A stretch of DNA of 64,000 nt from the NCBI GenBank assembly GCA_947579605.1, contig OX388318.1:10912001-10976000 (forward strand). Reading direction: 5' to 3'. The notes beneath the pieces were generated by a model. That model was not told the DNA's origin and made no database searches. It saw nothing but the letters and a program-made list of their open reading frames with translations. Below, in pieces: positions 13,725-62,706 of the stretch. The stretch's first letter is position 1, and each line of letters opens with the position of its first letter. The position numbers and the translations under genes are program-made. The stretch comes from Athripsodes cinereus (lineage: Eukaryota; Arthropoda; Insecta; Trichoptera; Leptoceridae).

Positions 13725-13945
13725 CCAGTTGATTTCCCGGTAAAAGACAGGTCTTCCACTCTTTTCAGTAAGTTTTTAGTGTCCTGTCAAATACAGGTGT
13801 TCCCAAAACCTTACGTATAAGAAAATTAACACATTCAAATCAGCGATGAGACAAACTACTGATTCTTAATGCCTTTCTTTTTATCGACACGAAGAGTACA
13901 ATTTGCATGTTTATTATATGCAGTTAGTAGTGTGCTGGCTATCAC
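13725..13945 (+). repeat. Old copy of the (TAG)n-tailed SINE-like repeat
   Basis: Recognisable blocks in order: gatttcccggtaaaagacag, agtttttagtgtcctgtcaa, cagcgatgagacaaactact, cgacacgaagagtacaattt and gtgtgctggctatcacactt. The TAG tail is gone. It is strongly diverged from 51660-51912. Confidence 0.6.
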
Positions 13946-16030
13946 ACTTGTAATATAAAAATATCTACAGAAAGAAAATATTAATTTCAATTTATTTTAA
14001 TTTCATATTTCAATTCCATCAAAGCAATTTAACCATTTTCAGAAGATATCACGACTAAATAATGAGCTGGTTAATTCAGCAATGAGGTGTGCTACCTATT
14101 CTGAATATCCTAAAAAATTGACAACTTACATGCAGAAACTCCGTTGGCTTCCCCTGTGGTATAGAGAGAGATTAACATAACGAGTGAATTATCGTTAAAT
14201 ATCTGGCTAATCTTTGTAAAAGGGTATCGGGTGAAAGTTCTAGTATGATAAATAATTGTATTATGATAGAATATTGTAATAATATTTCATACTTGATATT
14301 TTTTAATATAGAAATATCTTCGACAACAATAACCTATTGTCGCCTATGATGAGTTAATCTTACTTGTCATTATTATAAAACGTATTTCATTATATTCAAA
14401 TTATAATATTAACAATATTGAAATGATTAGAGTATTATTATTATCATTACCTATATTGTTAATATTAAATACTTGCCAAGGAGTGTTCAATGTCTTTGAT
14501 AAATTATAATATTAAATTTACAAGTATTCAATAGTAAACATTCTCATTAATAATATATTCAGTCATGTAGTTATGTGCTAATTTGCAAAGCTTCTTACGT
14601 CCATAGCACTTAACTAAGAATAGGAATAATAAATAAGACAATAGATATCATAGCTTCCAAAACAAATTAACAATAATTTACACACAACAAAAAATATATA
14701 GGTTCTAATGATTAGGAATTGATCCTAGAGTCAGTTCTTCTCATTTTGTTTATATTCTCGGCACTAACTATGTAATCATTTGTAGACATATTGATATTGT
14801 TTTAGAGTAATTATGAAATTAATTTATAATTTTTCGCTTTTCGCTCTCATTAATTTCTCGTTTTTGTCTTTGCAAAAATTTCGAAGTCCACATTATGAAA
14901 ACAAACAAGGATACATTCTCTAAAGCACTATAATTATTACCAAAAGCTTCTACATATGTAAGTAAGTATTAGGTATGAATATGGGATAAGTTGTAAGTCA
15001 GTGAAATACAAATAGTCCTATTGGAAGTTTGAGACTATTAATGCACCAACAGGTAGGCACTGACTGCTTTTATAGGTAGGCACCTATATCCAAATGTGTA
15101 CTGTCATCACATCAATATAAAATTCACTTGCGTATGTTTCCGTCAGTGATATCATGACAAAAAACTATTTCTATTATTCCTGTAGGTATAATTAAACTAC
15201 TTACTGCATGTGAATCTTGTTCATTGTTGGTACTTGTACATACATAATATAAAGCAGAATTTCAATACGTGTATTTGATTGAAATAAATGTTTGTATGAT
15301 AGGAAATAAAAGATTAAAGCGAATAATTGACAATGTATAAAAATATGTTTTGTTTAACCAAATGAACTGATATATTGTACATATATTCTTAAGTTGTATA
15401 TTGCGTATCTTGTATTATAATTCTAATGTAAAACCTTAAATTCAAAAGTGAATTGTTGACATGATACATTTTATGGCAAATCAACAATAATATCTATAAT
15501 AATTGATATGCACGCCCTTCGTAATTTGTAATAATCATTGGTAAAAAATGACATGTCTACGGTACTTACTGTTTGTTCAATATCACAAAAGTCGTTTTTT
15601 GTGATAGGTAGATGGTTGGTATACCTAATTTTGTCATGCAGAAAATAGCTTAATATTTCGGCTGTCTGTTAAAATTTATCTTAACACTAATAGTTCAAAA
15701 ATGTTACTGTAAATGTATGAAATAAAACAAATAATTGACGTATAATTTTTAATATTTACCTATATTTTTTCTTACTGCAACAAATATAATTGTGAATGAT
15801 TTCATAAGGAAGCATACTACTTATTGTATTTTTTTTTTTGATAACACTCTCCAAATTTTAAATTTGATTTTACATTTTTTGAGATGAATGCATGTTAAAC
15901 CTAACAGCATGTAAATGTTTATTATTTTCCGTTCACGAAATAACATGACATGTAAAGACCATTTACACATACTGAGGTAGTCCCAAACTAAGATATGAAT
16001 CTTGTATGATGGGTACTTACACACATATTA
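13946..16030. other. AT-rich non-coding stretch
   Basis: One further SINE-like scrap at about 14085-14110 (caatgaggtgtgctacctat). Otherwise no supportable feature. Confidence 0.4.
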
Positions 16031-19648: not shown

Positions 19649-19652
19649 GTAT

Positions 19653-21984
19653 TGTGATGACCCTACCTATTTTAAACCATTCTAAGCTCCGAATTTGCAA
19701 CATCCTAGCTTCTAAACTATACCTACTGTAATAATTGATTCCCAAACTAGAAGTGACAACCCTATTCAGCTAGCTAAGAATTGTATGAATTTTCGCATTG
19801 TTGCAAATATGCGCACGAAATATCGCATTCCTAATTGAATTAATTAACGAATTTTGGCCTTCCGTGATCGTCTAGATTTATCTATTAACTATTTTGCATA
19901 GATTTGGACCCAGTACGTTGTGTTTTGACGATAATTTTACCTACGTTGTGTATTTTTAGAACGCAAAATAAGTCACCTGAAATATACATTTCAGGTAATC
20001 AAAAAGAACAACAAAATCACAAAATCAATAAAACAATTTAAACATGAATTTTGATACATATTAACTCTGAGATCAACTTTGACGTCAGATCACTTACCTT
20101 GAGATACTGTAAAATAACATAATAAAAATAGAGCATAATAAAACATAACAAAATATAACATAACAATCATCATAACATAAAATTCAAATAATATTATTCT
20201 ATATCATTACGAGAATGTTGTATGGTAACTGGTTGCCGATCTATGTCCCTACATAAGATAACCATTTCATAGTTTCTATAGCCGATGTATGTACATATGT
20301 TCTACAACATACCTACTAATTCGTTGCGTCGTAAAGGACAGTGGCGCACCCAAAAACATAACTTTATTACTTTTAAATATTAATTAAATTTCAACACGAT
20401 TGTTTTGACATCATTTTCGGAGACTATAACTACTGGTTGTTAATGCATGGAAAGCATGCTGTGTCCATGCTGAAGGAGCGCCACCTTCGCTCCCTCACGT
20501 CTCAAAACTCGCCATGCCGTACTTTGAGCCCGAGTGCACTAATCTACACCCCGAATATATAAAATAATATATAATATGTATACTCATTTGAACATGCAGC
20601 TATATATAATAAGAATAATTATAAATATATGTTAAGAAGCTTTGTCTTGGACCCTGGCGGGAAACGGGGCAAGACCAGTATTGACCCTTGTCTCGAAAGC
20701 TGAATCGAAGAGAGGGGAGCAGGGCTTGCTAACGGTACACCTACATTTCGAAGCAGGATTAGGACTGGAATTGTTAGTATATAGTATATGTTTCTACAAA
20801 GTACATAATACGTCTCGTGCATAATTGTATAATAATAATGATAAATATGTGGTTACGAATAGATCAAACCCACACTATAGACACAAGGTAGCTAGTCTAG
20901 TGTCGATAGGCAGAAGGGATCCATATCCATAAGGTAATCTCGACAAGATTTAGCTATAAAAGACTACATATTTATGGTGAGGTGAATTTAGGTATCATGT
21001 AAGTCAAATAAAAATATATTAAGACCAATAAATACATAAATATTACTTATGATTAGTGTCATGCAAAATGTCAAATTTGTTCCTTCCATGATATCGCAGC
21101 GACTACAGCATGTTGAATAGTAGAAAATCCAGTAAGTTCGTAGAATACAAATGACATCCGATGATAAAATATGTAATTAAATTAATAATCAAATAATATC
21201 CTGCTCAACAGACAACTTCTCTCCAAACTGCATAATCTTTCGTTATGGTAAAATAAATTAAATGAAAATATAATATCGGTACGCCACTGCCATCGGTCTA
21301 GTTGTAGGTGTGTCGGGCGGCGCTATATAAAATCGGTAACAAGTACATACATACATACAAATATACTGAAAATAAATGTACATATAACAAATAATTCCTT
21401 TGTTTTCAAAATCTGTAAAATTAAATAAATCCTTGTGTACGACGACTACTTTGTAGACAACAATATCCTTCTAAATATCACGACACCTAGATATAAATAA
21501 ATTAATAATATTGAAAAATCTTATCTTATGACAGCTGGCAGGATCACGGATTTTAAAATGTTAGTTAAAAGTAATTTAGGATGATCTATATATATTCCCA
21601 AATGTGGAAATATCACTAAAATATAGTGTACTAACTACTATGAAGGTGGGTAAATAAATATTAAAATATATCGAATTCAAACACTGAGATTAATATGATT
21701 GAGTCCCACCTCTCCTAGGCACAAAACTAAACTGCCCAGAGTAATAAGTACTCTGTCTTCAGACCCTGAAAATGTCGACCCAAAGCAACAAAAAAAAACT
21801 ACATCCATCTCTTCCTGACACACACCGAAATATACCTGCCTCTGTCTCCTACATAGCTAGTTGTGTTCAACAACCACTTGAGATTAAACTAAGTTTCATT
21901 CCTATATTAATTACCTACTACAAATATTCGATCTAGGTATATGAAAATAATATTTACAATCTTGTATATATTCATTTCATCACA
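19653..21984 (-). repeat. 3' LTR of the LARD-like element
   Basis: It is 2332 bp, with the first and last 8 bp inverted (TGTGATGA / TCATCACA). By eye it matches the other LTR except for a 4-bp AATT gap at about 20606 (present at about 26321 in the partner). Small frames inside, such as 20822-20619, are the same in both LTRs and have no recognisable content. Confidence 0.9.
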
Positions 21985-25365: not shown

Positions 25366-25367
25366 TT

Positions 25368-27703
25368 TGTGATGACCCTACCTATTTTAAACCATTCTAA
25401 GCTCCGAATTTGCAACATCCTAGCTTCTAAACTATACCTACTGTAATAATTGATTCCCAAACTAGAAGTGACAACCCTATTCAGCTAGCTAAGAATTGTA
25501 TGAATTTTCGCATTGTTGCAAATATGCGCACGAAATATCGCATTCCTAATTGAATTAATTAACGAATTTTGGCCTTCCGTGATCGTCTAGATTTATCTAT
25601 TAACTATTTTGCATAGATTTGGACCCAGTACGTTGTGTTTTGACGATAATTTTACCTACGTTGTGTATTTTTAGAACGCAAAATAAGTCACCTGAAATAT
25701 ACATTTCAGGTAATCAAAAAGAACAACAAAATCACAAAATCAATAAAACAATTTAAACATGAATTTTGATACATATTAACTCTGAGATCAACTTTGACGT
25801 CAGATCACTTACCTTGAGATACTGTAAAATAACATAATAAAAATAGAGCATAATAAAACATAACAAAATATAACATAACAATCATCATAACATAAAATTC
25901 AAATAATATTATTCTATATCATTACGAGAATGTTGTATGGTAACTGGTTGCCGATCTATGTCCCTACATAAGATAACCATTTCATAGTTTCTATAGCCGA
26001 TGTATGTACATATGTTCTACAACATACCTACTAATTCGTTGCGTCGTAAAGGACAGTGGCGCACCCAAAAACATAACTTTATTACTTTTAAATATTAATT
26101 AAATTTCAACACGATTGTTTTGACATCATTTTCGGAGACTATAACTACTGGTTGTTAATGCATGGAAAGCATGCTGTGTCCATGCTGAAGGAGCGCCACC
26201 TTCGCTCCCTCACGTCTCAAAACTCGCCATGCCGTACTTTGAGCCCGAGTGCACTAATCTACACCCCGAATATATAAAATAATATATAATATGTATACTC
26301 ATTTGAACATGCAGCTATATAATTATAATAAGAATAATTATAAATATATGTTAAGAAGCTTTGTCTTGGACCCTGGCGGGAAACGGGGCAAGACCAGTAT
26401 TGACCCTTGTCTCGAAAGCTGAATCGAAGAGAGGGGAGCAGGGCTTGCTAACGGTACACCTACATTTCGAAGCAGGATTAGGACTGGAATTGTTAGTATA
26501 TAGTATATGTTTCTACAAAGTACATAATACGTCTCGTGCATAATTGTATAATAATAATGATAAATATGTGGTTACGAATAGATCAAACCCACACTATAGA
26601 CACAAGGTAGCTAGTCTAGTGTCGATAGGCAGAAGGGATCCATATCCATAAGGTAATCTCGACAAGATTTAGCTATAAAAGACTACATATTTATGGTGAG
26701 GTGAATTTAGGTATCATGTAAGTCAAATAAAAATATATTAAGACCAATAAATACATAAATATTACTTATGATTAGTGTCATGCAAAATGTCAAATTTGTT
26801 CCTTCCATGATATCGCAGCGACTACAGCATGTTGAATAGTAGAAAATCCAGTAAGTTCGTAGAATACAAATGACATCCGATGATAAAATATGTAATTAAA
26901 TTAATAATCAAATAATATCCTGCTCAACAGACAACTTCTCTCCAAACTGCATAATCTTTCGTTATGGTAAAATAAATTAAATGAAAATATAATATCGGTA
27001 CGCCACTGCCATCGGTCTAGTTGTAGGTGTGTCGGGCGGCGCTATATAAAATCGGTAACAAGTACATACATACATACAAATATACTGAAAATAAATGTAC
27101 ATATAACAAATAATTCCTTTGTTTTCAAAATCTGTAAAATTAAATAAATCCTTGTGTACGACGACTACTTTGTAGACAACAATATCCTTCTAAATATCAC
27201 GACACCTAGATATAAATAAATTAATAATATTGAAAAATCTTATCTTATGACAGCTGGCAGGATCACGGATTTTAAAATGTTAGTTAAAAGTAATTTAGGA
27301 TGATCTATATATATTCCCAAATGTGGAAATATCACTAAAATATAGTGTACTAACTACTATGAAGGTGGGTAAATAAATATTAAAATATATCGAATTCAAA
27401 CACTGAGATTAATATGATTGAGTCCCACCTCTCCTAGGCACAAAACTAAACTGCCCAGAGTAATAAGTACTCTGTCTTCAGACCCTGAAAATGTCGACCC
27501 AAAGCAACAAAAAAAAACTACATCCATCTCTTCCTGACACACACCGAAATATACCTGCCTCTGTCTCCTACATAGCTAGTTGTGTTCAACAACCACTTGA
27601 GATTAAACTAAGTTTCATTCCTATATTAATTACCTACTACAAATATTCGATCTAGGTATATGAAAATAATATTTACAATCTTGTATATATTCATTTCATC
27701 ACA
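25368..27703 (-). repeat. 5' LTR of the LARD-like element
   Basis: It is 2336 bp. Same ends and sequence as 19653-21984 apart from the extra AATT at about 26321. As the 5' LTR it should contain the promoter; I cannot place it with confidence. Confidence 0.9.
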
Positions 27704-27870
27704 GTATGAAACTCAAAAAAATTAATTCTAACTAAGATTAATGCTATGTTAAATTAATATCAAGACATAAATTACTCACTCATCGATAAATAATAGACAT
27801 TTTGATTATGGGATAGTTTATCTTACTTATTTTTTTATTTATTTACTACTATCATTCAAGTATTATTTAT

Positions 27871-28509
27871 ATTAAATTATTTATATTTATAACCTCAAAA
27901 TCTGTCAAACTGTCAAGAAGTGCTATCAAGCCTGGTAATGTGTTATATTGGTATCAGCGACACAACCTACTATTCTGCCAAATTATATCTGTCAACACAT
28001 TTATTTAATAGTATTAATAATCATGAAGAAGGTCTATTATATAATATAATGAATTTAACAATGATTAATATTGTTATTACTGTATTAAATTATTTATATT
28101 TATAACCTCAAAATCTGTCAAACTGTCAAGAAGTGCTATCAAGCCTGGTAATGTGTTATATTGGTATCAGCGACACAACCTACTATTCTGCCAAATTATA
28201 TCTGTCAACACATTTATTTAATAGTATTAATAATCATGAAGAAGGTCTATTATATAATATAATGAATTTAACAATGATTAATATTGTTATTACTGTATTA
28301 AATTATTTATATTTATAACCTCAAAATCTGTCAAACTGTCAAGAAGTGCTATCAAGCCTGGTAATGTGTTATATTGGTATCAGCGACACAACCTACTATT
28401 CTGCCAAATTATATCTGTCAACACATTTATTTAATAGTATTAATAATCATGAAGAAGGTCTATTATATAATATAATGAATTTAACAATGATTAGTATTGT
28501 TATTACTGT
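27871..28509 (+). repeat. Three tandem units of 213 bp
   Basis: Unit starts (attaaattatttatatttat) lie at 27871, 28084 and 28297. The units are almost identical; the third differs by gattagtattg for gattaatattg before the repeat ends. Each unit contains the same 61-codon frame MLSSLVMCYIGISDTTYYSA...VLNYLYL with its own ATG and stop (27920-28105, 28133-28318, 28346-28552). The array begins 164 bp after the LTR element. The period is divisible by 3, but every unit closes its own frame, so this is more likely a short satellite than a repeated protein. Confidence 0.9.
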
Positions 28510-28779
28510 ATTACATTGTTTAATTTACTGTTTCAATATTATGGACGTATAGACTAGTAGATATTCATTGTTGTAAGTTTTAAACTTTCTCATAAGGTGG
28601 CGTTAATAGTCTATCAATGAACCTATTTATGTACCACACAATTTCAAGGTCCTCTATTAGATTTTAAACTTAACTACTTGGATGCACCTACGAGATTAGT
28701 ATAATTTTTCAGACCAACCTATATAATCTGTGTACGCAATAAAATGGGTTTTCAACTCTTTTTTGTGAGTTAATACTAC

Positions 28780-28875: not shown

Positions 28876-29565
28876 TAGACAGTAGAATAATAAAATAATA
28901 TGCCGTTGTGTGTAGGTACCTATTTACTATAGAATAGTGTTAATTAATAGGTTTATCCCACAGAAGAATAATAATTTCCGTATCTCAATAATAAATATTT
29001 ATCTACATACTTCTTAATAAATGTAGATAATTTTTCCTATGTTTGCAATAAATAATACATAAATAATTGCACTCTATGATTCAAATGTAAATATTTTCTA
29101 TGGACTGAGCGAGCATTGATCTGTTCTTCAGTCGGTCAAAAATATCAGACGCATTATCTAAATAATAATAGGTATTTAAAGTCTATAAATACTTTACTTC
29201 ATTATTATAATTAGGTATATATTAGTATGTATGTTTGCTTATATTATTATGTCTCTTAAAGACCAGGTAAAAAGTAGAGAAATCAATGACTTCTGTGATT
29301 ATATGCATTTTTTAGTATGTTTTTGAGAAAAATATATTTCGTATTAGTTAACAGAAATAATTACAAGCGATATTTATCAACACCTTAAAAAATACGTATT
29401 TATTAAAAAAAAAAAACATTTTTAAAGATTTGTTCTACATATTTGACATCCAACCGCAACAATATGACAACAAATAATTTACACGGTATAGCCAGTTTCT
29501 TTTTATCGCCTTTTATTTGTTAATTAATTAATTTAGCAGTTTTTTAAACATTAATACACCATATT
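28876..29565. other. AT-rich non-coding stretch
   Basis: Nothing recognisable. Confidence 0.45.
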
Positions 29566-29790
29566 AATGTTGTTGACCGAAGGTACTTGTTGGAAGTCCA
29601 TTTCAAGATAATATAGAAAAAAACACAATGTGTAGTTAACTTCCAAATGACTTTTATTAACTTCGCGTACTAGTATTCGGAGACTCTCGACTCCATCATC
29701 AGGCGATTAGTAAAAAGGCGAGAGTCTCCGAATACTAGTACGCGAAGTTAATAAAAGTCATTTGGAAGTTAACTACATATAGTGTTTTTT
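29566..29790 (-). mobile_element. Palindromic repeat with hammerhead-ribozyme-like core (Penelope/retrozyme-like)
   Basis: A 59-bp perfect inverted repeat (29631-29689 with 29719-29777) encloses a 29-nt loop. On the minus strand the loop and left arm carry CTGATGA (29702-29696), then a 17-nt segment whose GGAGTC and GTCTCC halves pair around GAGA, then GAA, then the self-complementary TACTAGTA (29675-29668). A stem-I pair TCGC/GCGA closes it. The right arm lacks CTGATGA. Upstream on the plus strand (29570-29610) the minus-strand sequence ATGGACTTCCAACAAG matches the same position in the copy at 52065-52415. The cleavage triplet reads TAC, with a 15.1-16.1 pair swapped to U-A, so activity is doubtful. 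It is the same family as 52065-52415. Confidence 0.7.
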
Positions 29791-30529
29791 TTTCAATTTT
29801 ATCTATTAATACAACAAAAAACTTTAATTTTCTTAGTCTGTTACTTTCCTGAAAAATTCCTAACAATATGTGTGCTGTATTTTTTTTTATATATTATGTA
29901 CATGTACGAAGCCAGGTTTACAGCTTGTAACAAACTAAAATAAATTCAAGTTAAGTTATGTATTTTCTCCTAAAAATAATTATTTGCCTATTGTCTATTT
30001 ATGTTCTGTACAGCTAAACAAATACTGACCATCTGCTAATAAAACAATATTTTTTCTTTAGTAGATGGTCAGTGTTTTAATGAGTCATTTACCTAGGATA
30101 TTATTTACCCTCCGAAGTTCATTGAACATTTTTTTTCTATAATTAGTCCATTTCATACTCATAACAGACATAATATAAAAATAGAATTAACATAAAAATC
30201 TTATCCTTAAGTCACGAAATATTGGACAGTTAATTTTGTTTGATAACATTCTGAAAAGAAACTTCTTTTACCATTTTTGATCCATTTAGAGGCAAAGGTC
30301 TCCCTTCAGTTTCTCCACTCTTTTCTGTCTCAATTCTGAGCAATCTCTCTTACTATATCATCCAAACATTGAGCCTGAAGTCTACCGATAATAATTATTA
30401 TTTCTTCGCAAGAATGGTACGTTTCGTAAAAGGTAGTTTATTTATTTTTAATAATATATTTTAATTTATTTTAATTTATCAAAATCTTTATATTGGAAAC
30501 ACATTATGTATTTTCAAATTTATTTATGT
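29791..30529. other. AT-rich stretch with one hairpin
   Basis: Nothing coding. A 16-bp stem (actgaccatctgctaa at 30023-30038 with ttagtagatggtcagt at 30058-30073) encloses a 19-nt loop. Confidence 0.45.
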
Positions 30530-34440: not shown

Positions 34441-34669
34441 AATAAGATATTTTATTCTTTTTACTCGGTCTCTGAAAAAAGAGTCTAAATTGTTTTCGAA
34501 TTTTGGCCATACCCAATTATCGTTATCAGAAAAATGGTCGTTAAATTATTATTTATGCATTTAATCTTTAAAAGATTTTGTGCATTATATCAACGAATTC
34601 ATAAAAAAGAACATTTTCATGCATAAACGAATAAATTTATTGTTATTTTGAACCAAAACCTCTACCACA

Positions 34670-34915
34670 ACAACTACTAATATCTATTACTACATATATC
34701 ATCACGGCGTGTCCCCCACAAGTCGGGAAGCTAGCAAACCAGCCGCATGTAATAAACGCGCAAACAATCCTCTCAGCGCCAACAAAAAAATAAGATATTT
34801 AGAGTGTGTAGCAAACCTCATCGCTGAAATTAATATGAACAATTTTGAACACCCGCGTTTTCCAGGATACTCGCAAACTTACAGAAAATAGTAGGAGAAC
34901 AATTCTCTACCAAGT
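34670..34915 (-). repeat. Copy of the (TAG)n-tailed SINE-like repeat
   Basis: In reverse: tactaat / tactacatatatcatcacgg, cgtgtcccccacaagtcggg, gcgcaaacaatcctctcagc, gtgtagcaaacctcatcgct and accaagtgctccacg. Nearly full length and moderately diverged. Confidence 0.8.
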
Positions 34916-35459
34916 GCTCCACGAAAAGAGTGGTTACACCCATACCAAAATCTCTGTACGTTTCAAAATCTTTTTTTTACTTTTACTACGTTCAATTTAT
35001 CCGTACCAAATAAACATGATGTGAACACTACTAAAATAGTACATAGGATTCAAATGCGAGACATTTTTTCTAATTATATAATTCAATTCTAGGAAGACAT
35101 ACTTAACTTAGAGCGCTTCTCAATAATAGTAAACACAATTTAATTGATTCGATAGACTACGTCATAATATTACATAGATATATAAGCGCTCTATTCCATT
35201 TTCACTGTATTATTGCTATTATCTAGTGTTTACATTGAAAACGAGAGTATTTTCTATGTATACTTGTTAACCATCTACGATTCAACTAAATACTGTATAG
35301 TAATATGATGGCGTCTACGTCAAAGATTTTCTTTTTCCTACATTCATGAAAAAGTCACAGTTGCAGCTGGGTGCCTAAAGAGTGCCAAATTGATAAATAA
35401 ACACATGTTAATTTTATTGATAACAAAGTCTGAATATATTTACTATAGTGTCGACCTAT
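34916..35459. other. AT-rich non-coding stretch
   Basis: Nothing recognisable. Confidence 0.45.
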
Positions 35460-41063: not shown

Positions 41064-43988
41064 TTATATACTGTTCAAAATCTGCAAAACAGATATTTTA
41101 AAGCCACGAGGATTGCTCGCAAACATGTCGACGTCACAAAATCTATCGTTGTAGTTGCTTAATATACGGTAGAGGGGGTTACGCAAACCAGCATTAGCTA
41201 TACTTACGTTTAGAGGCCGGTTAGTTCTTCTTACTGAAGGTATGCGAAAACCGATTTTGGTCAATATTTGAGGGACATCAACCTCTGATGTACATACCTT
41301 CCTCAAAATGCACGCATCCATCAATTCACGGCGCTTTGAGAGCTCCAATAGGTTCCCACAGAATGCATCACCGTACCTTCGTCCACACATTCGTAGAAAT
41401 TTACGCTGTACACGTTCAATTGCTAAGATATATTTATCATATAACGGGTTCCAAATTGTAGAACAATATTCAAGCCGTGTTCTGACGAGTGCGACATATA
41501 GTACTGTCATAGTCTTAGGATCTTTGAACTCTTTAGTTGTTCTTAAAATGAAGCCCAATGTTCTGTTACATTGTTCCGTGATATCCTCAACATGCGCCTC
41601 AAAATGAAGCCTGCTATCAAACGTAATGCCTAAGTCTCGTATTTTCTCTAGTTGGATCAAAATTTGACCGTTAATAGTATATTTATGATTAATAATTTTT
41701 TTATTTTTCGTAAAAGAAATCGAATTACACTTTTTTAAATTTAACTCTAGCTTATTAACGACACAGTAATCATAGATCCTACCAAGATCCTCCTCCAGTT
41801 TCTCAGCATCCTCAATACAACGTATTTGCCGATATATCTTGAGGTCATCGGCAAAAAGCAGAAACTGGGAATGACGTATGCAGTCACCTATGTCATTAAT
41901 AAATGTCGAAAACAGCAATGGCCCCAACACTGAACCCTGAGGCACTCCGGACGTCACTGGAACATTATCAGAATTAAATCCGTTCATCGTCACGGACATC
42001 AATCTGTCGGTCAAATACGATTTCAACCATCTCAAAAGATCGCCGTGAATACCATATTTAGAGAGCTTATTGAGTAGAATGGAATGGTCCACCTTATCAA
42101 AGGCTTTCCTAAAATCAGTATAGACAGAATCAACTTGTATTCGCTCATCCATGGAAGAAAACAAATACTCTGAGTACACCAAAAGATTAGTGACCGTAGA
42201 CCTACCCCCCACAAACCCATGCTGCTCCTCCAGCAACCGCGGTCCCAAAAAATGCGCCAAACGATCCTTCACGACAGACTCAAATACCTTTGATACAGGA
42301 GAAAGAATGGATATAGGTCTGTAGTTACTCATATCGGACTTGTCGGCCGTCTTATGTATGGGAGTAATATTGGCAGTTTTCCAGATTTTTGGAAAACATC
42401 CCTCTCTAACACTCATATTAAAAATAATCTGTAAAGGTTTAGCTATGTGTGGCGCACATCTTCTTAGTACCAATGAAGATAATCCATCTGGACCTATGCC
42501 CTTATTAATATCAAGATTTATCAATTTATCATAAACTTCAGAACACAAAATTGTTAGACCGGGTAAGCAGGCTGAAGGTAGAGCGAGTGCATCATCAATG
42601 ATGTCGATGTCGTCATAAACCTTTTCATTGAAGACAGACTGAAAAAAAGAACAGAAAAGACCTGCAATTGTTTTTGGATCACTTGAATGAACACCATTGA
42701 AGTGCATATTTCTGGGGTAACCGTTAGAAGTTTTCATATGGTTGATGTAAGAGAAAAATAGCTTAATATTATTTTTAATTGATTTTTCTAAACTATCTAA
42801 ATACATTTTGCGATCTCCTCTATGTGCCTGTTTTAGTTTTGCTCTGTACGTAGAGAAAACAGCATAATCACACTGGTTATGAAACTTTTTCCACAGCCCC
42901 CAATATTTATTCCTCATCCTGGCCAATAAAACTGTAGGCTTCTTGTACCAATGTGGAAAGCCAGAAGATTTAGGAATTTTCTTGGGAGTGTGAGCATCAA
43001 TAACTGAAAACAATACTTCATAGAAAGTGTTCACAGCATCGTTAGTATTTCCTCTATTCAACAAGTCATTCCAATCAACAGTGGCAAGTTTTGCATTGAT
43101 TTGGTCAAAATTCGCCTTACGATAATTGTATTTGGCCTTACGATTAATACTTAGATGGGTTTCGTTCACAATAATAGGAATGTTAACCAATAGAGGAGGA
43201 TGATGTCCGTCCTCAGGCACCAACGGAAAGTCACATCTTTCAACATCGCAATTCAAATCCGATAGCACCAGATCCAAGATAGAATTATTTTTGTTCTTTA
43301 TAAAATTATATTGTTCAACGTTCATGAAGCGTATTGCTTCCACGAGAAGACGCACATGAGGGCCACGCCGCGAACCCTGTATATCCGTCCGACCATCATC
43401 ATCTTTAACCCACTGAGCGTTTGGAATATTATAATCACCTATAATACACAAGTGAATATTATTTCTATCCTCCATAAATGTATCAGATATTTTGTTAAAG
43501 TGTCGTTCGTACTCGCATATAGAAGTGCCCGGAGGAAAGTAAACCACCCCCAACACGAGACCACATTTCCCACGACCAGTATTGTCGTTTTTAGATACCA
43601 ATGATAACGCAACAAAAAGGTCCTCACCCGAGGTCTCCCACTTTGGCTCCCGCACACAATCAAAATTACGCGATACCGCCACAAGCACGCCTCCCCCGTC
43701 ACGCTTGTTTGTAGCCTTGAGATCCCTGTCTCTGCGAAATATATTATAATCGTCGTTAAAAAGTTCACTATTCTGAACACTAGCGTTGAGCCATGTTTCC
43801 GTGAGGATTACAATGTCATAACCTCCAACAATAATATTTGAGCAAAAAACGCTGGTCTTGCTTCTAAGCCCTCTACAGTTTTGATAATATACTTTTAATG
43901 CGCCTATAATTAATGTAACGCAAGTCGTACAATAGTAGTGACACAACACGTCCGCACGCACCCACGTGTGGCTTATAAGATAATACAC
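41064..43988 (-). CDS. Intact Jockey-like LINE ORF2: endonuclease-reverse transcriptase, up to 974 aa
   Basis: One uninterrupted frame. The conserved part begins at LKVYYQNCRGLRSKT (about residue 32); the first 30 residues may not be translated. Endonuclease: VILTETWLNASV, RDGGGVLVAVSR, CIIGDYNIPNAQW (about 180) and EDGHHPPLL (about 256). Reverse transcriptase: INKGIGPDGLSSLVL, NYRPISILSPVSKVFESVV, FVGGRSTVTNLL, VYTDFRKAFDKVDHSILL (about 620), TSGVPQGSVLGPLLF and the catalytic FADD (about 712). After it come ISFTKNKK, the RDLGITFDSRLHFEAHVED block and RTRLEYCSTIWNPLY. The enzyme nicks the target and reverse-transcribes element RNA there. It follows ORF1 by 105 bp, as in a two-ORF LINE. All catalytic motifs are intact, so this copy could be recent or active. 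The decayed element at 720-3812 is a relative. Confidence 0.93.
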   Translation of the reverse strand: MYYLISHTWVRADVLCHYYCTTCVTLIIGALKVYYQNCRGLRSKTSVFCSNIIVGGYDIVILTETWLNASVQNSELFNDDYNIFRRDRDLKATNKRDGGGVLVAVSRNFDCVREPKWETSGEDLFVALSLVSKNDNTGRGKCGLVLGVVYFPPGTSICEYERHFNKISDTFMEDRNNIHLCIIGDYNIPNAQWVKDDDGRTDIQGSRRGPHVRLLVEAIRFMNVEQYNFIKNKNNSILDLVLSDLNCDVERCDFPLVPEDGHHPPLLVNIPIIVNETHLSINRKAKYNYRKANFDQINAKLATVDWNDLLNRGNTNDAVNTFYEVLFSVIDAHTPKKIPKSSGFPHWYKKPTVLLARMRNKYWGLWKKFHNQCDYAVFSTYRAKLKQAHRGDRKMYLDSLEKSIKNNIKLFFSYINHMKTSNGYPRNMHFNGVHSSDPKTIAGLFCSFFQSVFNEKVYDDIDIIDDALALPSACLPGLTILCSEVYDKLINLDINKGIGPDGLSSLVLRRCAPHIAKPLQIIFNMSVREGCFPKIWKTANITPIHKTADKSDMSNYRPISILSPVSKVFESVVKDRLAHFLGPRLLEEQHGFVGGRSTVTNLLVYSEYLFSSMDERIQVDSVYTDFRKAFDKVDHSILLNKLSKYGIHGDLLRWLKSYLTDRLMSVTMNGFNSDNVPVTSGVPQGSVLGPLLFSTFINDIGDCIRHSQFLLFADDLKIYRQIRCIEDAEKLEEDLGRIYDYCVVNKLELNLKKCNSISFTKNKKIINHKYTINGQILIQLEKIRDLGITFDSRLHFEAHVEDITEQCNRTLGFILRTTKEFKDPKTMTVLYVALVRTRLEYCSTIWNPLYDKYILAIERVQRKFLRMCGRRYGDAFCGNLLELSKRRELMDACILRKVCTSEVDVPQILTKIGFRIPSVRRTNRPLNVSIANAGLRNPLYRILSNYNDRFCDVDMFASNPRGFKISVLQILNSI

Positions 43989-44093
43989 CTATAGAGCTGT
44001 TCACACACCAATGAAATGAAGGAAAAGGGGAAATAAGGGAACAGACAAATATTATAATAGGATTTACATTGTAAAATGCAACAAAATTAGATT

Positions 44094-45251
44094 TTAAAAA
44101 ATATTCTCCAGGTCTTTTAACGATGTAATGGCAATAGCTGATTCGTCCACGTCCTTTCGTACGTAAATTCTTGCGTTTTTCACCCAGGTAAACCTCCAGC
44201 CTACGGACTTTGACTTTAAGCGTGCTTCTCTGAATAGTAGTTTGTTCTTCAAGGTGAGATGTTCCGATACATAGATTTTTCGATCTCTGTCTGGTAGTCC
44301 AATGTCCTCCGTTAGCAGACTTCGCTTGGCTTTTGCTCCAGATAAAAAAGCGTCACGCATTTTTTGTTGTGAAAATTTAATAATTATATTTTTAGGACGG
44401 TTTTTAGAGGCGGTGCCATGCGATACTCGATGAGCTGCTACAATATCATTTTGAGTAATTGAAATTCCTATTTTGTTTGCTATTTTAGTCACTACATTCA
44501 TGAGATTCTCACCCTTGTGTTCAGTGACATTTTGCACCTCGACATTGCAACGTCTTGCTCGTTGTTCTATATCATTGGCATTAATCTCCATCTCACGAGT
44601 ATGTTTTTCTAGTGTATCTAAGCGAGATAAAACTTTTTTATGTTCATTTTTAAGCAGTTCATAGTCGATGATAGTATCATTAAACTTTTTTGTGGTAATT
44701 TCGAATTCTTCCATCTTTTTAATGCAAAAACCAAGAGATTCAAAAAGTCCATTGTATTTTTCATCTAATTTATTCAGCAATGTATCAAATTTAAATGTAA
44801 TATTTGTGATAAATAATTCGATTTTAGAATTTATATATTCGGTTAATTCTGTATTTAATTTATTTTCGTTAGGTGAAGTTGACGAAAGCGGTTCCATAGA
44901 ATTTTCGAGAAGATTTTTGTTTATGACTTTATTAGTTGTCAAATTCGTATTAGGTGTTTCTATCTTCTTTGTCGATGGTGCGGGAAGAAGCGGAGATGAG
45001 TGTGTACTGGCAGTGTTTACGTTTTTGTTAATTGTTGGAAGTGGTAAATCGTCATGTTTCAGCAGTTTCTTCGTATTTTGCTTTCGTCCCTTTTGACAGG
45101 GTGAACAGCTCCATGACGCTAGACGCTGCCTTGTCATTTTTTCGTGTGATATGTTTGCACAAACACAGTGAAAGTAACCATGACAGGTGCTACATGACAG
45201 TGAATCATTTTGATGTGTTATCTTGTTACAATGTGCACAAAAGTTATTCAT
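44094..45251 (-). CDS. Intact LINE ORF1: PHD finger, coiled coil, FP-type C-terminus, 385 aa
   Basis: Residues 1-55 form a Cys/His-rich PHD-type finger (FCAHCNKITHQ, SCSTCHGYFHCVCANI, WSCSPCQKG). Residues about 56-140 are a Ser/Thr/Asn-rich linker. Residues about 145-245 are rich in charged heptads (LNKLDEKYNGLFESLG, KKVLSRLDTLEKHTREME) and should form a coiled coil. Residues about 250-385 form a basic domain (RRCNVEVQNVTEHKGENLMN, AAHRVSHG, RPKNIIIKFSQQKMRDAFL, NARIYVRKD) like the FP/RRM-type domain of other LINE ORF1 proteins. It would coat element RNA as a multimer and help in targeting. The start is the first ATG of the frame. ORF2 begins 105 bp downstream on the same strand. The ORF1 fragment at 6918-7491 is a relative of the C-terminal half. 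Confidence 0.9.
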   Translation of the reverse strand: MNNFCAHCNKITHQNDSLSCSTCHGYFHCVCANISHEKMTRQRLASWSCSPCQKGRKQNTKKLLKHDDLPLPTINKNVNTASTHSSPLLPAPSTKKIETPNTNLTTNKVINKNLLENSMEPLSSTSPNENKLNTELTEYINSKIELFITNITFKFDTLLNKLDEKYNGLFESLGFCIKKMEEFEITTKKFNDTIIDYELLKNEHKKVLSRLDTLEKHTREMEINANDIEQRARRCNVEVQNVTEHKGENLMNVVTKIANKIGISITQNDIVAAHRVSHGTASKNRPKNIIIKFSQQKMRDAFLSGAKAKRSLLTEDIGLPDRDRKIYVSEHLTLKNKLLFREARLKSKSVGWRFTWVKNARIYVRKDVDESAIAITSLKDLENIF

Positions 45252-49989: not shown

Positions 49990-50048
49990 ATTATTAATTG
50001 TCCGCGAGCCAGTTTTCTAAAGCTTCTTCTCTCATCATCAGTCTGAGA
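49990..50048 (-). ncRNA. Degenerate hammerhead-like core
   Basis: The minus strand reads CTGATGA (50041-50035), then 17 nt, then GAAA (50017-50014), then ACTGGC and TC-GC. Spacing and many bases match the intact core at 52161-52208 (shared GAAGCTTT and GGCTCGC). Stem I no longer pairs and stem III is weakened, so it is probably inactive. Confidence 0.5.
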
Positions 50049-51645: not shown

Positions 51646-51926
51646 TATTTTTTTAGTCCGTGGAGCACCCGGTAAAGAATTGGTCTCCCACTCTTCTGCG
51701 TAAGTTTTCGAGTGTCCTGTAAAAGGCAGGTGTTCGAAAAAAATAAGACATTTTACTTCTTAAATTCATCGATGAGGCTTGCCACCCATCCTGAATGTCT
51801 TGATTTTATATTGGCACGAAGAGGACAGTTTGCATGTTTCTTACATGCAGTTGATCTGCTGGCTACCCCACTTGTGGGATATGCTGTGATGGTATAGTAG
51901 TAGTAGTAGTAGTATTTTTTTAGTCC
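51646..51926 (+). repeat. Best copy of the (TAG)n-tailed SINE-like repeat, 14-bp TSD
   Basis: The repeat runs from 51660 (gtggagcacccggtaaagaa) to 51912, ending in seven or so TAG units. TATTTTTTTAGTCC occurs directly before (51646-51659) and after (51913-51926), a 14-bp target duplication. This makes it a retroposed unit of about 253 bp. Near the 3' end CTACCCCACTTGTGGGAT can fold as a hairpin (CCCAC-TT-GTGGG). No clear RNA polymerase III box A/B pair is visible, and a frame MRLATHPECLDFIL... ATPLVGYAVMV crosses much of it. It may be a SINE without a tRNA head or the 3' end of a LINE. Confidence 0.9.
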
Positions 51927-52064
51927 TTCAAAAATATCATCAATGATAATCAGTATGTAATGTATGTGCATACTCGTATAGGTATATCTTATTTGCCTAT
52001 AAATCCTTATATAAAGTAAGTGTCATATGTGAGAATTAAATAGTATCTTAATAAAGTGTAATTT
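51927..52064. other. Short non-coding stretch
   Basis: Nothing recognisable. Confidence 0.4.
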
Positions 52065-52415
52065 ATCGACCGACGGTTCTTGGTGGAAGCTCATATTAAA
52101 AAAATTAAAATGAAACACTATATACCTACCTATAGTTATTCCACTATTGACTTTATTTATTTTTGCGAGCCGGCTTTCAAAAGCTTCCGCTCTTATCGTC
52201 AGGCAAAAGTAAATTAAAATGAAACACTATATACCTATAGTTATTCCACTATTGACTTTATTTATTTTGCGAGCCGGCTTTCAAAAGCTTCCGCTCTTAT
52301 CGTTAGTAACATTTGCCTGAGCGGCGAAAGTTACTACCGTCTTACTGAGAAAGCCGGCTAGCAAAAATAAATAAAGTCAATAGTGGAATAACTATACATC
52401 GTGTTTCATTTTAAA
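52065..52415 (-). mobile_element. Hammerhead-bearing repeat with tandem and inverted arms (Penelope/retrozyme-like)
   Basis: Two direct arms (about 52105-52209 and 52210-52310, period about 105) are followed by an inverted arm (52311-52415). The arms share attaaaatgaaacactatat, agttattccactattgactt and tatttatttttgcgagccgg. On the minus strand, arm one holds a complete hammerhead core, arm two has CTAACGA in place of CTGACGA, and the inverted arm has CTGAGCG. Beyond arm one the minus strand continues into ATGAGCTTCCACCAAGAACC (to about 52066), matched in the copy at 29566-29790. Tandem and inverted partial repeats with type I hammerheads are the known form of Penelope-like pLTRs and animal retrozymes. 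No RT or GIY-YIG frame is present. Confidence 0.7.
52161..52208 (-). ncRNA. Type I hammerhead ribozyme (predicted intact core)
   Basis: Minus strand, in order: TTTTGC (52208-52203, stem I 5' side); CTGACGA (52202-52196), the conserved CUGANGA; T, then AAGAGC-GGAA-GCTTTT (stem II, six pairs including one G-U, GNRA-like loop); GAAA (52178-52175); GCCGGC (52174-52169), a self-complementary stem III without a loop; the cleavage triplet CUC (52169-52167); and GCAAAA (52166-52161), which pairs fully with TTTTGC. A15.1 and U16.1 are present. A palindromic short stem III implies that two copies act as a dimer, as known for schistosome and Penelope-type hammerheads. Self-cleavage is predicted, not shown. 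Confidence 0.75.
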
Positions 52416-52549
52416 AATTACCAGTATTTTAATATCAGATACCTACATTTAAAATTTTATATAAGTAAAAAAGAATTTTCACAACATGAAATGAACCAAC
52501 TTCAAATTTTATAAAAAAAGTAGTAGGTGTGTATATTTTTTTTTGTTGA

Positions 52550-54902: not shown

Positions 54903-55112
54903 GATACTACTACTATCTACATACTATCCCATTTCGGCATATCCTACAAGTGGGGTAGCCAGCAGACCAGCCGCATGCAATAATCATGCAAGCTGTCCTC
55001 TCTGTGTCAACAAAAAATTGAAACTTTCAGGATGAGTGCTCTTTATTCACCTGCCTCTTATACAGCAAAAAAAGAGTGAGGGACCAATTCCTTGCTGGCT
55101 GCTCCATGGAAT
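54903..55112 (-). repeat. Full-length copy of the (TAG)n-tailed SINE-like repeat
   Basis: In reverse: actactactatctacatact, atcccatttcggcatatcct, acaagtggggtagccagcag, atcatgcaagctgtcctctc and gagggaccaattccttgctg. Diverged and with an internal deletion. Confidence 0.85.
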
Positions 55113-58554: not shown

Positions 58555-59580
58555 CTTAAAAATTTTCAGACCAGTAGGAGGAGCAATATTGTAAATGGTA
58601 GTTTCCATATCAATGGGAGGGGCTTTGTTGGAAATGGAATGAGTTTAGATAAAAGTAGGATGGGCTATATTGTCAATGAGAGGATTTCCAGACTAGTAGG
58701 AGGGGCTTTACTTAAAATGGGAGGAGTTTCTATATCAACGAGAAAAGCTTAAATGGAAATGGGAGGAGCTATGTACTATGATAGTAGAAACTTTATTTTA
58801 AATGGGAGGAGTTTCCAAACAAATGGGAAGGGCTCTATTGAAAATGGAAGGAGTTTTTATAGAAGTAGGATGGGCTTTATTGTGAATGGTTATTTTTCAG
58901 ACTAGTAGGAGGGGCTATATAATAAATGGGAGGAGTTTCCATATCAATGGGAGAGGCATTGTTGGAAATGGGAGGAGTTGAGATAAAAGTGGGTTGGGCT
59001 ATATTGTCAATGAGAGGATTTCCAGACTAGTAGGAGGGGCTTTACTTGAAATGGGAGGAGTTTCCATATCAACGAGAAAAGCTTAAATGGAAATGTGAGG
59101 AGCTACAATGATAATAGGCATTATATTAAAAATGGGAGGAGTTTCCATATCAATGGGGGGGCATTGTTGGAAATGGGAGGAGTTTAGATAGGGTTGGGCT
59201 ATATTGTCAATGGAAGGACTCCAGACTAGTAGGAGGGGCTTTACTTAAAATGGGAGGAGTTTCCATAGCAATGAGAAAGGCTTAAATGAAAATAGGAGGA
59301 GCTACTACGATAATAGGCACTATATTATAAATGGGAGGAGTTTTAATACTAATGGGAGGGGCTCTATTGGAAATGGGAGGAGTTTCCATATTATAAATGG
59401 GAGGGGCATTGTTGGAAATGGGAGGAGTCTCGATAAAATTAGGATTGGTTATATTATCAATGGGAGGATTTTTCAGACTTGTAGGAGGAGATATACAATA
59501 AATGAGAGGAGTTTCAATATGAACGAGAAAGGCTTTATTGAAAATGGGAGGAGCTATCATGATAGTAGGAGGGACTATAG
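58555..59580. repeat. GGAGGAG minisatellite with higher-order structure
   Basis: Short units such as aatgggaggagtttccatat, caatgggaggggctttgttg and aaaagtaggatgggctatat alternate over about 1 kb. The anchor cagactagtaggagg falls at 58567, 58689, 58898, 59023, 59222 and 59474, giving alternating spacings of about 122-125 and 199-209 and a super-period of about 325-335 bp. On the minus strand one frame (59596-59282) gives a PPIS/PPIY-rich repeat (TPPISNNAPPIYNMETPPIS), but it is not kept open through the array. Confidence 0.9.
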
Positions 59581-59584
59581 TTCG

Positions 59585-62140: not shown

Positions 62141-62429
62141 AAATCACCTATTTATTCAACCTTATCCCGTGGAGCACCCGGTAAAGAATTGGTCTCCCAC
62201 TCTTCTGTGTAAGTTTTCGAGTGTCCTGTAAAAGGCCGGTGTTCGAAAAAAATAAGACATTTTACATCTTAAATTCAGCGTTGAGGTTTGCCACCCATCC
62301 TGAATGTCTTGATTTTATACTGGCACGAAGAGGACAGTTTGTATGATTCTTACATACAGCTGATCTGCTGGCTACCCCACTTGTGGGATATGCCGTGATG
62401 GTATAGTAGTAGTAGTGGAAAATCACCTA
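62141..62429 (+). repeat. (TAG)n-tailed SINE-like repeat, full length, 10-bp TSD
   Basis: The repeat at 62151-62419 is flanked by AAATCACCTA (62141-62150, 62420-62429). It is about 90% like 51660-51912 by eye and has extra tttattcaaccttatcc at its 5' side, inside the duplication. Confidence 0.9.
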
Positions 62430-62507: not shown

Positions 62508-62706
62508 TTATTTAGGTAAAAAAATAAGACATTTTACATCTTAAATTCAGCGATGAGGTTTGCCACCCATCCTGAATGTCTTGATTTTATATTGGCACGA
62601 AGAGGACAGTTTGCATGTTTCTTACATGCAGCTGATCTGCTGGCTACCCCACTTGTGGGATATGCCGTGATGGTATAGTAGTAGTAGTAGTAGTAGTTAT
62701 TTAGGT
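62508..62706 (+). repeat. (TAG)n-tailed SINE-like repeat, 5'-truncated, 10-bp TSD
   Basis: 62518-62696 begins at aaaaaaataagacattttac, about 75 nt inside the full-length form, and ends in seven or so TAG units. TTATTTAGGT flanks it (62508-62517, 62697-62706). Truncation at the 5' side with an intact tail is the mark of target-primed reverse transcription. Confidence 0.9.

Follow-up and report, generated by a model that had tools for sequence, protein, structure and literature searches.

The minus strand of positions 52161-52208 carries a real hammerhead-type motif, which is very probably the minimal hammerhead of a Penelope-like retroelement (PLE), situated in the leader (pseudo-LTR) of a short gene-less element and predicted to cleave. 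Within the window, i.e. the whole stretch of 64,000 nucleotides analyzed here, this copy is a weak, partly broken insert that alone would not convince, and the case for the hammerhead rests on family evidence. The Penelope-type affinity suggested by the initial annotation is borne out by the relatives of the motif: thousands of copies, paired changes between two families (termed A and B here), the same motif beside PLE open reading frames (ORFs), and the PLE anatomy of the inserts. According to these comparisons, a hammerhead-type fold has been kept through sequence change in PLE-like units. Because tandem PLEs of this genome have a motif of this kind as well, likewise with the extra U, we regard it as a PLE-type minimal hammerhead with a palindromic stem III, expected to form a dimer; dimeric cleavage after C17 is what we infer.

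The motif and its insert in the window

Read on the minus strand, 52161-52208 is TTTTGC CTGACGA T AAGAGC GGAA GCTTTT GAA A-GCCGGC-T C GCAAAA. The conserved hammerhead bases that the initial annotation had listed are all present in this copy, namely CUGANGA, GAA(A), CUC as the NUH triplet with H17 in place, and the pair A15.1-U16.1, and so are stem I of 6 bp, stem II of 6 bp (one of them G-U) around GGAA, and the palindromic stem III GCCGGC. The core had been called complete, which is correct for the bases named, but an unpaired U that went unmentioned lies between A9 and stem II. It interrupts the arrangement in which stem II stands directly after A9 and before G12, and because of it a descriptor without bulges fails at this site. 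The extra U follows A9 in all 45 core-intact A arms and in all B arms that hold CTGANGA (37 of 59). Hammerhead numbering, as we take it, places C3 at 52202 and C17 at 52167 of the minus strand; the RNA 5' end that had been expected at 52167 coincides with C17 itself, and the downstream product would begin at 52166. The features of the window that concern families A and B are as follows, with their basis in brackets.

52161-52208, minus strand: family A motif, comprising stem I, CUGACGA, extra U, stem II, GAA, palindrome AGCCGGCU, C17 and stem I (sequence and descriptor scan)
52151-52214, minus strand: motif with outer stem I (UUUA / UAAA over an internal loop), the 64-nt folding frame (folding)
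52166-52167, minus strand: predicted cleavage after C17 (52167), with the new 5' end at 52166 (sequence)
52054-52213, minus strand: family A unit with hammerhead, leader and tail, consensus positions 2-154 (alignment of copies)
52054-52094, minus strand: tail, the putative start of a PLE-like ORF, MSFHQEPSVDKLHF (translation)
52214-52306, minus strand: second A unit in direct tandem, 5'-truncated, core broken by G5 to A (alignment of copies)
52349-52420, plus strand: inverted A unit, without the 5' half of the motif and without tail (alignment of copies)
52042-52053, plus strand: left target-site duplication AGTATCTTAATA (sequence)
52423-52434, plus strand: right target-site duplication AGTATTTTAATA, 11/12 match (sequence)
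50006-50041, minus strand: old decayed family A relative, CUGAUGAU...GAA core kept, no stem I seen (sequence comparison)
29667-29702, minus strand: family B core CUGAUGA-U-GGAGUC-GAGA-GUCUCC-GAA-UACUAGUA-C, stem II with 5/6 pairs in the window copy (custom covariance model, 15.8 bits, E=0.0052)
29560-29717, minus strand: family B unit with tail, MDFQQVPSVNNIN (alignment of copies)
29719-29795, plus strand: inverted, 5'-truncated partner of the B unit, ends approximate (alignment of copies)

The insertion that contains the motif is 369 bp long (52054-52422) and is bordered on both sides by the 12-bp duplication. A transcript across this insert folds as a long hairpin (-131.7 kcal/mol, z -16.9). 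Searches of the ORFs near the insert against Pfam gave nothing above cut-off, and no ORF combining reverse transcriptase (RT) and GIY-YIG, as expected of an autonomous PLE, was found in or around it. Several other readings of the locus were tried and rejected. The conserved 42-bp module is open on the plus strand and could have been taken for a coding exon, but the module is the hammerhead core. A chance junction or rearrangement product, considered in view of a neighboring copy without G5, was overturned by the genome search and the copies that it returned. A similarity between 49.4 kb and 51.7 kb that suggested an old tandem duplication of 2.27 kb is explained by copies of a ~250-bp dispersed repeat.

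This ~250-bp repeat ends in (TAG)n, is SINE-like, and is found at 51658-51909, 62167-62416, 62518-62704, 54904-55038, 34669-34923, 13736-13951 and elsewhere in the window. The window also contains a 2.3-kb direct repeat (19652-21984 and 25367-27703, 99.8% identical), which indicates either a recent duplication or two young inserts, about three tandem copies of 213 bp at 27870-28527 (98-99% alike), and, at 58562-59582, a degenerate tandem array that matches itself at many shifts, the shortest being 122 bp (68-79% alike). ORFs of non-LTR retrotransposons with endonuclease and RT matches occupy 41064-45251 (minus strand) and 8848-11847 (plus strand), and one of them is adjoined by an ORF that matches Baculo_FP_2nd and, weakly, PHD.

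Chance level, covariance models and dimer folding

By eye, the motif had been judged far beyond chance, which is unsafe to claim from the window copy. A relaxed descriptor, consisting of explicit hammerhead rules with one extra base allowed, returned 52161-52208 as its sole match within the window. On 2.824 Gb of order-2 random sequence it gave 8 matches, i.e. 3.6e-4 per window, a value that flatters the site because the rules were drafted after the site had been seen; in a 716-Mb genome ~4 chance matches are expected.

The Rfam type I hammerhead model, which had been proposed as a check, did not support the site: it gave no match in the window, either at gathering level or at E<=10, and none at either level in short stretches around 52161-52208. 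RF00163 (Hammerhead_1) has the three-way fold and the core in common with family A; nonetheless, at E<=10 neither a consensus-like family A copy nor the hammerhead of a PLE group from the same genome (PLE-1, described below) was matched, and genome-wide the model returned 4 matches, none above cut-off (best 21.7 bits, E=3.4). As a positive control, type I hammerheads were sought by pattern in viral contigs, yielding 31 loci, 8 of them with sound stems. At gathering level Rfam reported no hammerhead in any of 11 such loci (the 8 sound ones and 3 others), whereas in E-value mode the one locus tried, L015, obtained 23.5 bits (E=4.6e-4). Absence at gathering level therefore means little, since pattern-found viral hammerheads are also missed there, and we conclude that Rfam misses the PLE hammerhead subtype. 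The well-formed viral hammerheads below the gathering thresholds are L004, L007, L012, L015, L016, L018, L024 and L025. A custom covariance model built from 7 of these 8 (L024, identical to L015, was omitted) placed the 52161-52208 site second of 9 with 10.0 bits and E=0.75, and ranked first 29660-29709 on the minus strand, the family B copy of the window (15.8 bits, E=0.0052). An Rfam match of MIR4221 to the palindrome was set aside as a hairpin effect; it stays under its gathering score on both strands.

The proposal that the motif works as a dimer through its palindromic stem III is supported by folding for the family and not for the window copy. The minimum free energy (MFE) structure of the homodimer of the 64-nt A consensus is exactly the dimeric hammerhead, with 32/32 pairs formed and 24/24 core bases unpaired, and the palindrome pairing in the dimer includes A15.1 and U16.1. 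Thresholds of 26 pairs and 22 core bases were passed by 20 of the 41 core-intact gap-free A arms. On the other hand, the homodimer MFE of the window copy itself is not the hammerhead (8/32 pairs); a reduced palindromic stem III that would allow dimers, as in PLE-type hammerheads, is a property of the family, and the predicted dimer of the window copy does not make use of it. As a monomer, the A consensus favors another fold (-15.1 vs -9.2 kcal/mol for the hammerhead).

Families A and B, Penelope-like elements and insert anatomy

The genome searched comprises 716 Mb in 160 contigs. The 40-nt core of family A has 4,609 matches in it (2284+2325) with at most 3 mismatches, and the reversed control has 0, which agrees with the earlier description of an interspersed repeat with dispersed copies. 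In a sample of 73 arms (38 loci picked from the genome match list, plus the window), all 12 core positions are intact in 45, window copy included, and 37 combine the core with at least 5 pairs in stem I, at least 5 in stem II and 3 in stem III. The unit is evenly conserved over its length (CUGANGA 0.85, GAAA 0.95, rest 0.92), the core being no better conserved among copies than the remainder, as expected of neutrally decaying inserts, and selection on single copies is not apparent; truncation accounts for part of the lower values in the 5' half. One locus (L051) contains three direct A units ~105 nt apart. In three others (L111 604-655, L109 241-295 and L085 1217-1270), positions 1 to ~50-54 of A are followed by other sequence, so that the switch falls just past the predicted cleavage site; with three loci, this may be due to chance or decay. 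When viral and bacterial contigs were scanned by pattern, the family A repeat had 0 matches; none was found in phages, and 3 matches in plasmids at E=1 were taken as chance.

Family B, whose consensus from 59 arms is UAAUCGC CUGAUGA U GGAGAC GAGA GUCUCC GAA UACUAGUA C GCGAAGUU, has 1,457 genome matches (746+711) with at most 3 mismatches (reversed control 0). Between A and B, CUGANGAU...GAA is constant and the differences in stems II and III are paired; the pair 15.1-16.1 is A-U in family A and U-A in family B. Hammerheads with U15.1-A16.1 are reported to cleave, with lower efficiency (PMC3088659). For the analysis of covariation, 33 distinct sequences (23 A-like, 10 B) were preselected for the core, the extra U and most pairs. 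In the A/B alignment 91.5% of cells are paired, compared to 24-44% when it is slid. The observed covariation score and the number of doubly changed cells were each reached by 0/500 shuffles, a count that is not a probability, because the sequences were preselected and the signal amounts in essence to a single comparison of two lineages, A and B. Three of the five measures lie beyond all 500 shuffles and two do not exceed them, namely changes on both sides in 7/10 pairs (matched by 331/500) and further pair types (498/500 as high). Covariation is thus found for stems II and III, and stem I was compared by reading A and B only. Several compensations around a fixed core would be hard to obtain without the fold. 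A longer family B element is found in L151 (598-1174), where the inverted arms reach far upstream of the hammerhead and one 78-aa frame is present on both strands.

PLEs with a similar motif exist in the same genome. With 150 of 1,102 candidates scored, the search for GIY-YIG domains gave at least 86 matches; the open frames reach up to 887 aa among the matches listed, and some lie in tandem at a spacing of 2,657 bp. One of the tandem ORFs (L172), the only one tested in this way, is open for 366 aa in its middle part, which matches the RT family PF00078 (E=1e-9). At C2:11320985-11326547 of the genome (G000), tandem PLE copies with this 2,657-bp spacing have a hammerhead in the short stretch that separates two ORFs. 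A hammerhead was present downstream of the GIY-YIG ORF in 8 of the 9 fragments fetched, at 50-56 nt past the ORF end in the five measured; the ninth downstream fragment, next to a short 87-aa frame (L171), had none. The motifs are of two kinds, GCAC CUGAYGA U GCGAACUCGGAGUCCGC GAA ACCGGU C GUGC (PLE-1, 3 loci) and ACUA CUGAAGA U GGG UGUAAG CCC GAA AACGUU U UAGU (PLE-2, 5 loci), both with the U after A9 and with a palindrome. The consensus motifs of A, B, PLE-1 and PLE-2 all read CUGANGAUG. The PLE-2 leader is followed by MNFHSVTHIKLE, and the tails of A and B resemble this ORF start (MNFH); no resemblance was seen to the PLE-1 start, MKCYKV. Comparison of A and B with the PLE leaders by blastn gave no match longer than 25 nt (best E=0.035), and no full-length PLE with an A or B leader was found in the genome.

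The units of both families are ~155 nt long and consist of the 5' hammerhead, a ~65-nt leader and then the tail of ~13 codons, translated as MNFHQEPSVDKLN in family A and MDFQQVPSVNNIN in family B; the predicted cut site precedes the ATG by 65 nt in A and by 63 nt in B. Units are arranged head to head, like inverted pLTRs of which one is tailed: of the distinct inverted pairs counted, exactly one end bears a tail in 45/47 from family A and in 39/39 from family B (84/86), and two tails occur in none; another 3 pairs, truncated where their locus ends, were left out. These counts come from B loci mostly fetched with a one-tailed query and include seven A loci chosen for paired arms, a choice that biases against tail-less pairs and not against two-tailed ones; in both exceptions (L073, L083) a tail piece is located further off. 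Exact flanking repeats of at least 8 bp were found around 33/47 A pairs (control 2) and 30/39 B pairs (control 4), with a mode of 12 bp; these variable target-site duplications, present in 63/86 pairs compared to 6/86 in the controls, are of the PLE kind. Because of the asymmetric ends and the variable duplications, a TIR or MITE DNA transposon was ruled out. The insert 5' ends fall at positions 1-2, the outer edge of the motif, in 61/94 A arms, and seldom at the cut site (position 49 in 1/94 A arms, position 53 in 0/78 B arms). Most units begin upstream of the cut and therefore the RNA copied was uncleaved, which speaks against a role of hammerhead cleavage in insertion. Three longer inverted elements (L108, L151, L152) have short ORFs or none, and none of RT plus GIY-YIG size.

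Known systems, alternative readings and meaning

PLE hammerheads with a reduced stem III that may act as dimers are known (PMC7761336, PMC6155905); what is new is this member. Among the titles listed for the literature on hammerheads, retrozymes and Penelope, none pointed to published work on the A/B family, which does not prove that there is no such work. With the minimal type I PLE hammerheads, as described in these sources, families A and B share the core bases, stems I and II, the reduced stem III and the dimer model, as well as the pseudo-LTR location and the thousands of dispersed copies. A, B, PLE-1 and PLE-2 may be set apart by the extra U after A9, and family B differs by U15.1-A16.1. 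The lizard element PAc (Penelope/Poseidon of Anolis carolinensis), according to its published account, resembles A and B in the hammerhead at the leader-ORF junction, in the tail between two reverse-transcription start sites with both target strands extended, and in the insertion of unprocessed RNA, as we infer for A and B (PMC11167929). It differs in that its hammerhead overlaps the ORF start, and in that no start-site difference between strands is reported in vitro, whereas each pair here has one end of each kind (PMC11167929). The copying of uncleaved RNA agrees with PAc, where hammerhead mutants are reported to insert normally, no RNA reads to start or end at the cut site, and cleavage to require the protein (PMC11167929). 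The PAc start codon is described as following C3 and G8, where stem II begins (PMC11167929), a position that, from the text, would fit the same U after A9. Likewise, for Penelope of Adineta vaga head-to-head inverted pLTRs with an optional 31-bp tail on one, a pLTR with the first 12 codons, target-site duplications of 8-10 bp and palindromic junctions have been described; there, however, they were described around ORFs and captured genes, and here they form short gene-less pairs of very high copy number (PMC3846280).

In the mechanism that we propose, PLE proteins would reverse-transcribe uncleaved RNA into AT-rich sites, beginning at two positions, one on each side of the tail, as in the lizard PLE (PMC11167929). 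Two RNAs would pair via the 8-nt palindrome and stem I into two hammerhead centers, which could cut after C17, probably slowly or with the help of protein, and so separate tandem transcripts.

It is unlikely, though by no means negligible, that the motif is a PLE hammerhead by descent that is catalytically dead or irrelevant, disabled by the extra U, weak stems and sequestering hairpins, in an element that moves without it. The extra U common to the two families and the two PLE groups, the long hairpin at the window locus, insertions that begin upstream of the motif and hence copy uncleaved RNA, and the lizard PLE mutants that still insert, without reads at the cut site in the published account (PMC11167929), would all agree with such loss; against it, the A and B stems changed in pairs, 15.1-16.1 included, around a fixed core, and the lizard hammerhead is reported to cleave when the protein is present (PMC11167929). 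An improbable alternative holds that the stem III palindrome and stem I mainly pair two template RNAs, as an architectural dimer with secondary cleavage. The palindromes were indeed kept while their sequence changed (AGCCGGCU, UACUAGUA, ACCGGU, AACGUU), and the inserts are two units head to head, often joined at the outer edge of the motif (61/94 in A); however, this leaves the fixed catalytic bases CUGANGA and GAA unexplained, and palindromic junctions may also come from self-priming, as proposed for Penelope (PMC3846280).

The three direct units in L051 and the direct tandem of two in the window recall metazoan non-LTR retrozymes, in which tandem units give small circular RNAs by type I hammerheads, the published RNAs being ~170-400 nt and such repeats being reported from insects (PMC7229834). 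We consider this origin very unlikely, as inverted head-to-head pairs with a one-sided ORF tail are PLE anatomy, the loci read contain no long tandem arrays, and RF00163 found no canonical type I hammerhead above cut-off in the genome. Least credible of all, a chance resemblance within a foldback or TIR DNA transposon would account for the palindromic, TIR-like look, and ~4 chance motifs are expected in a genome of this size; but it is contradicted by the asymmetric ends, the variable ~12-bp duplications and the ORF-like tail, and by a second family with compensating stems together with the same motif beside PLE ORFs.

Within the reading preferred here, a PLE-type minimal hammerhead, it is tempting to regard the dimeric hammerhead as the device that makes the inserts, a speculation to which we give little chance. 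Two RNAs would pair via the palindromic stem III and stem I, a PLE protein dimer would copy one RNA into each target strand from two start sites, and as these differ, each pair would receive exactly one tail (as in 84/86). The two cDNAs would come together at the outer margin of the paired hammerhead, with cleavage late and dependent on protein, and the extra U would act as a tuner that keeps the ribozyme uncut until the protein binds.

The role of hammerheads in PLEs is called unknown in print (PMC7761336). The genome studied here supplies more than 6,000 matches to two families in which the stems have changed in concert, as well as PLEs with the same kind of motif, and makes the question accessible to RNA work: whether cleavage occurs with the extra U, whether it needs a partner RNA or the PLE protein, and whether the dimer shapes the inverted insert. 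The insert ends of A and B may record the two start sites of reverse transcription.
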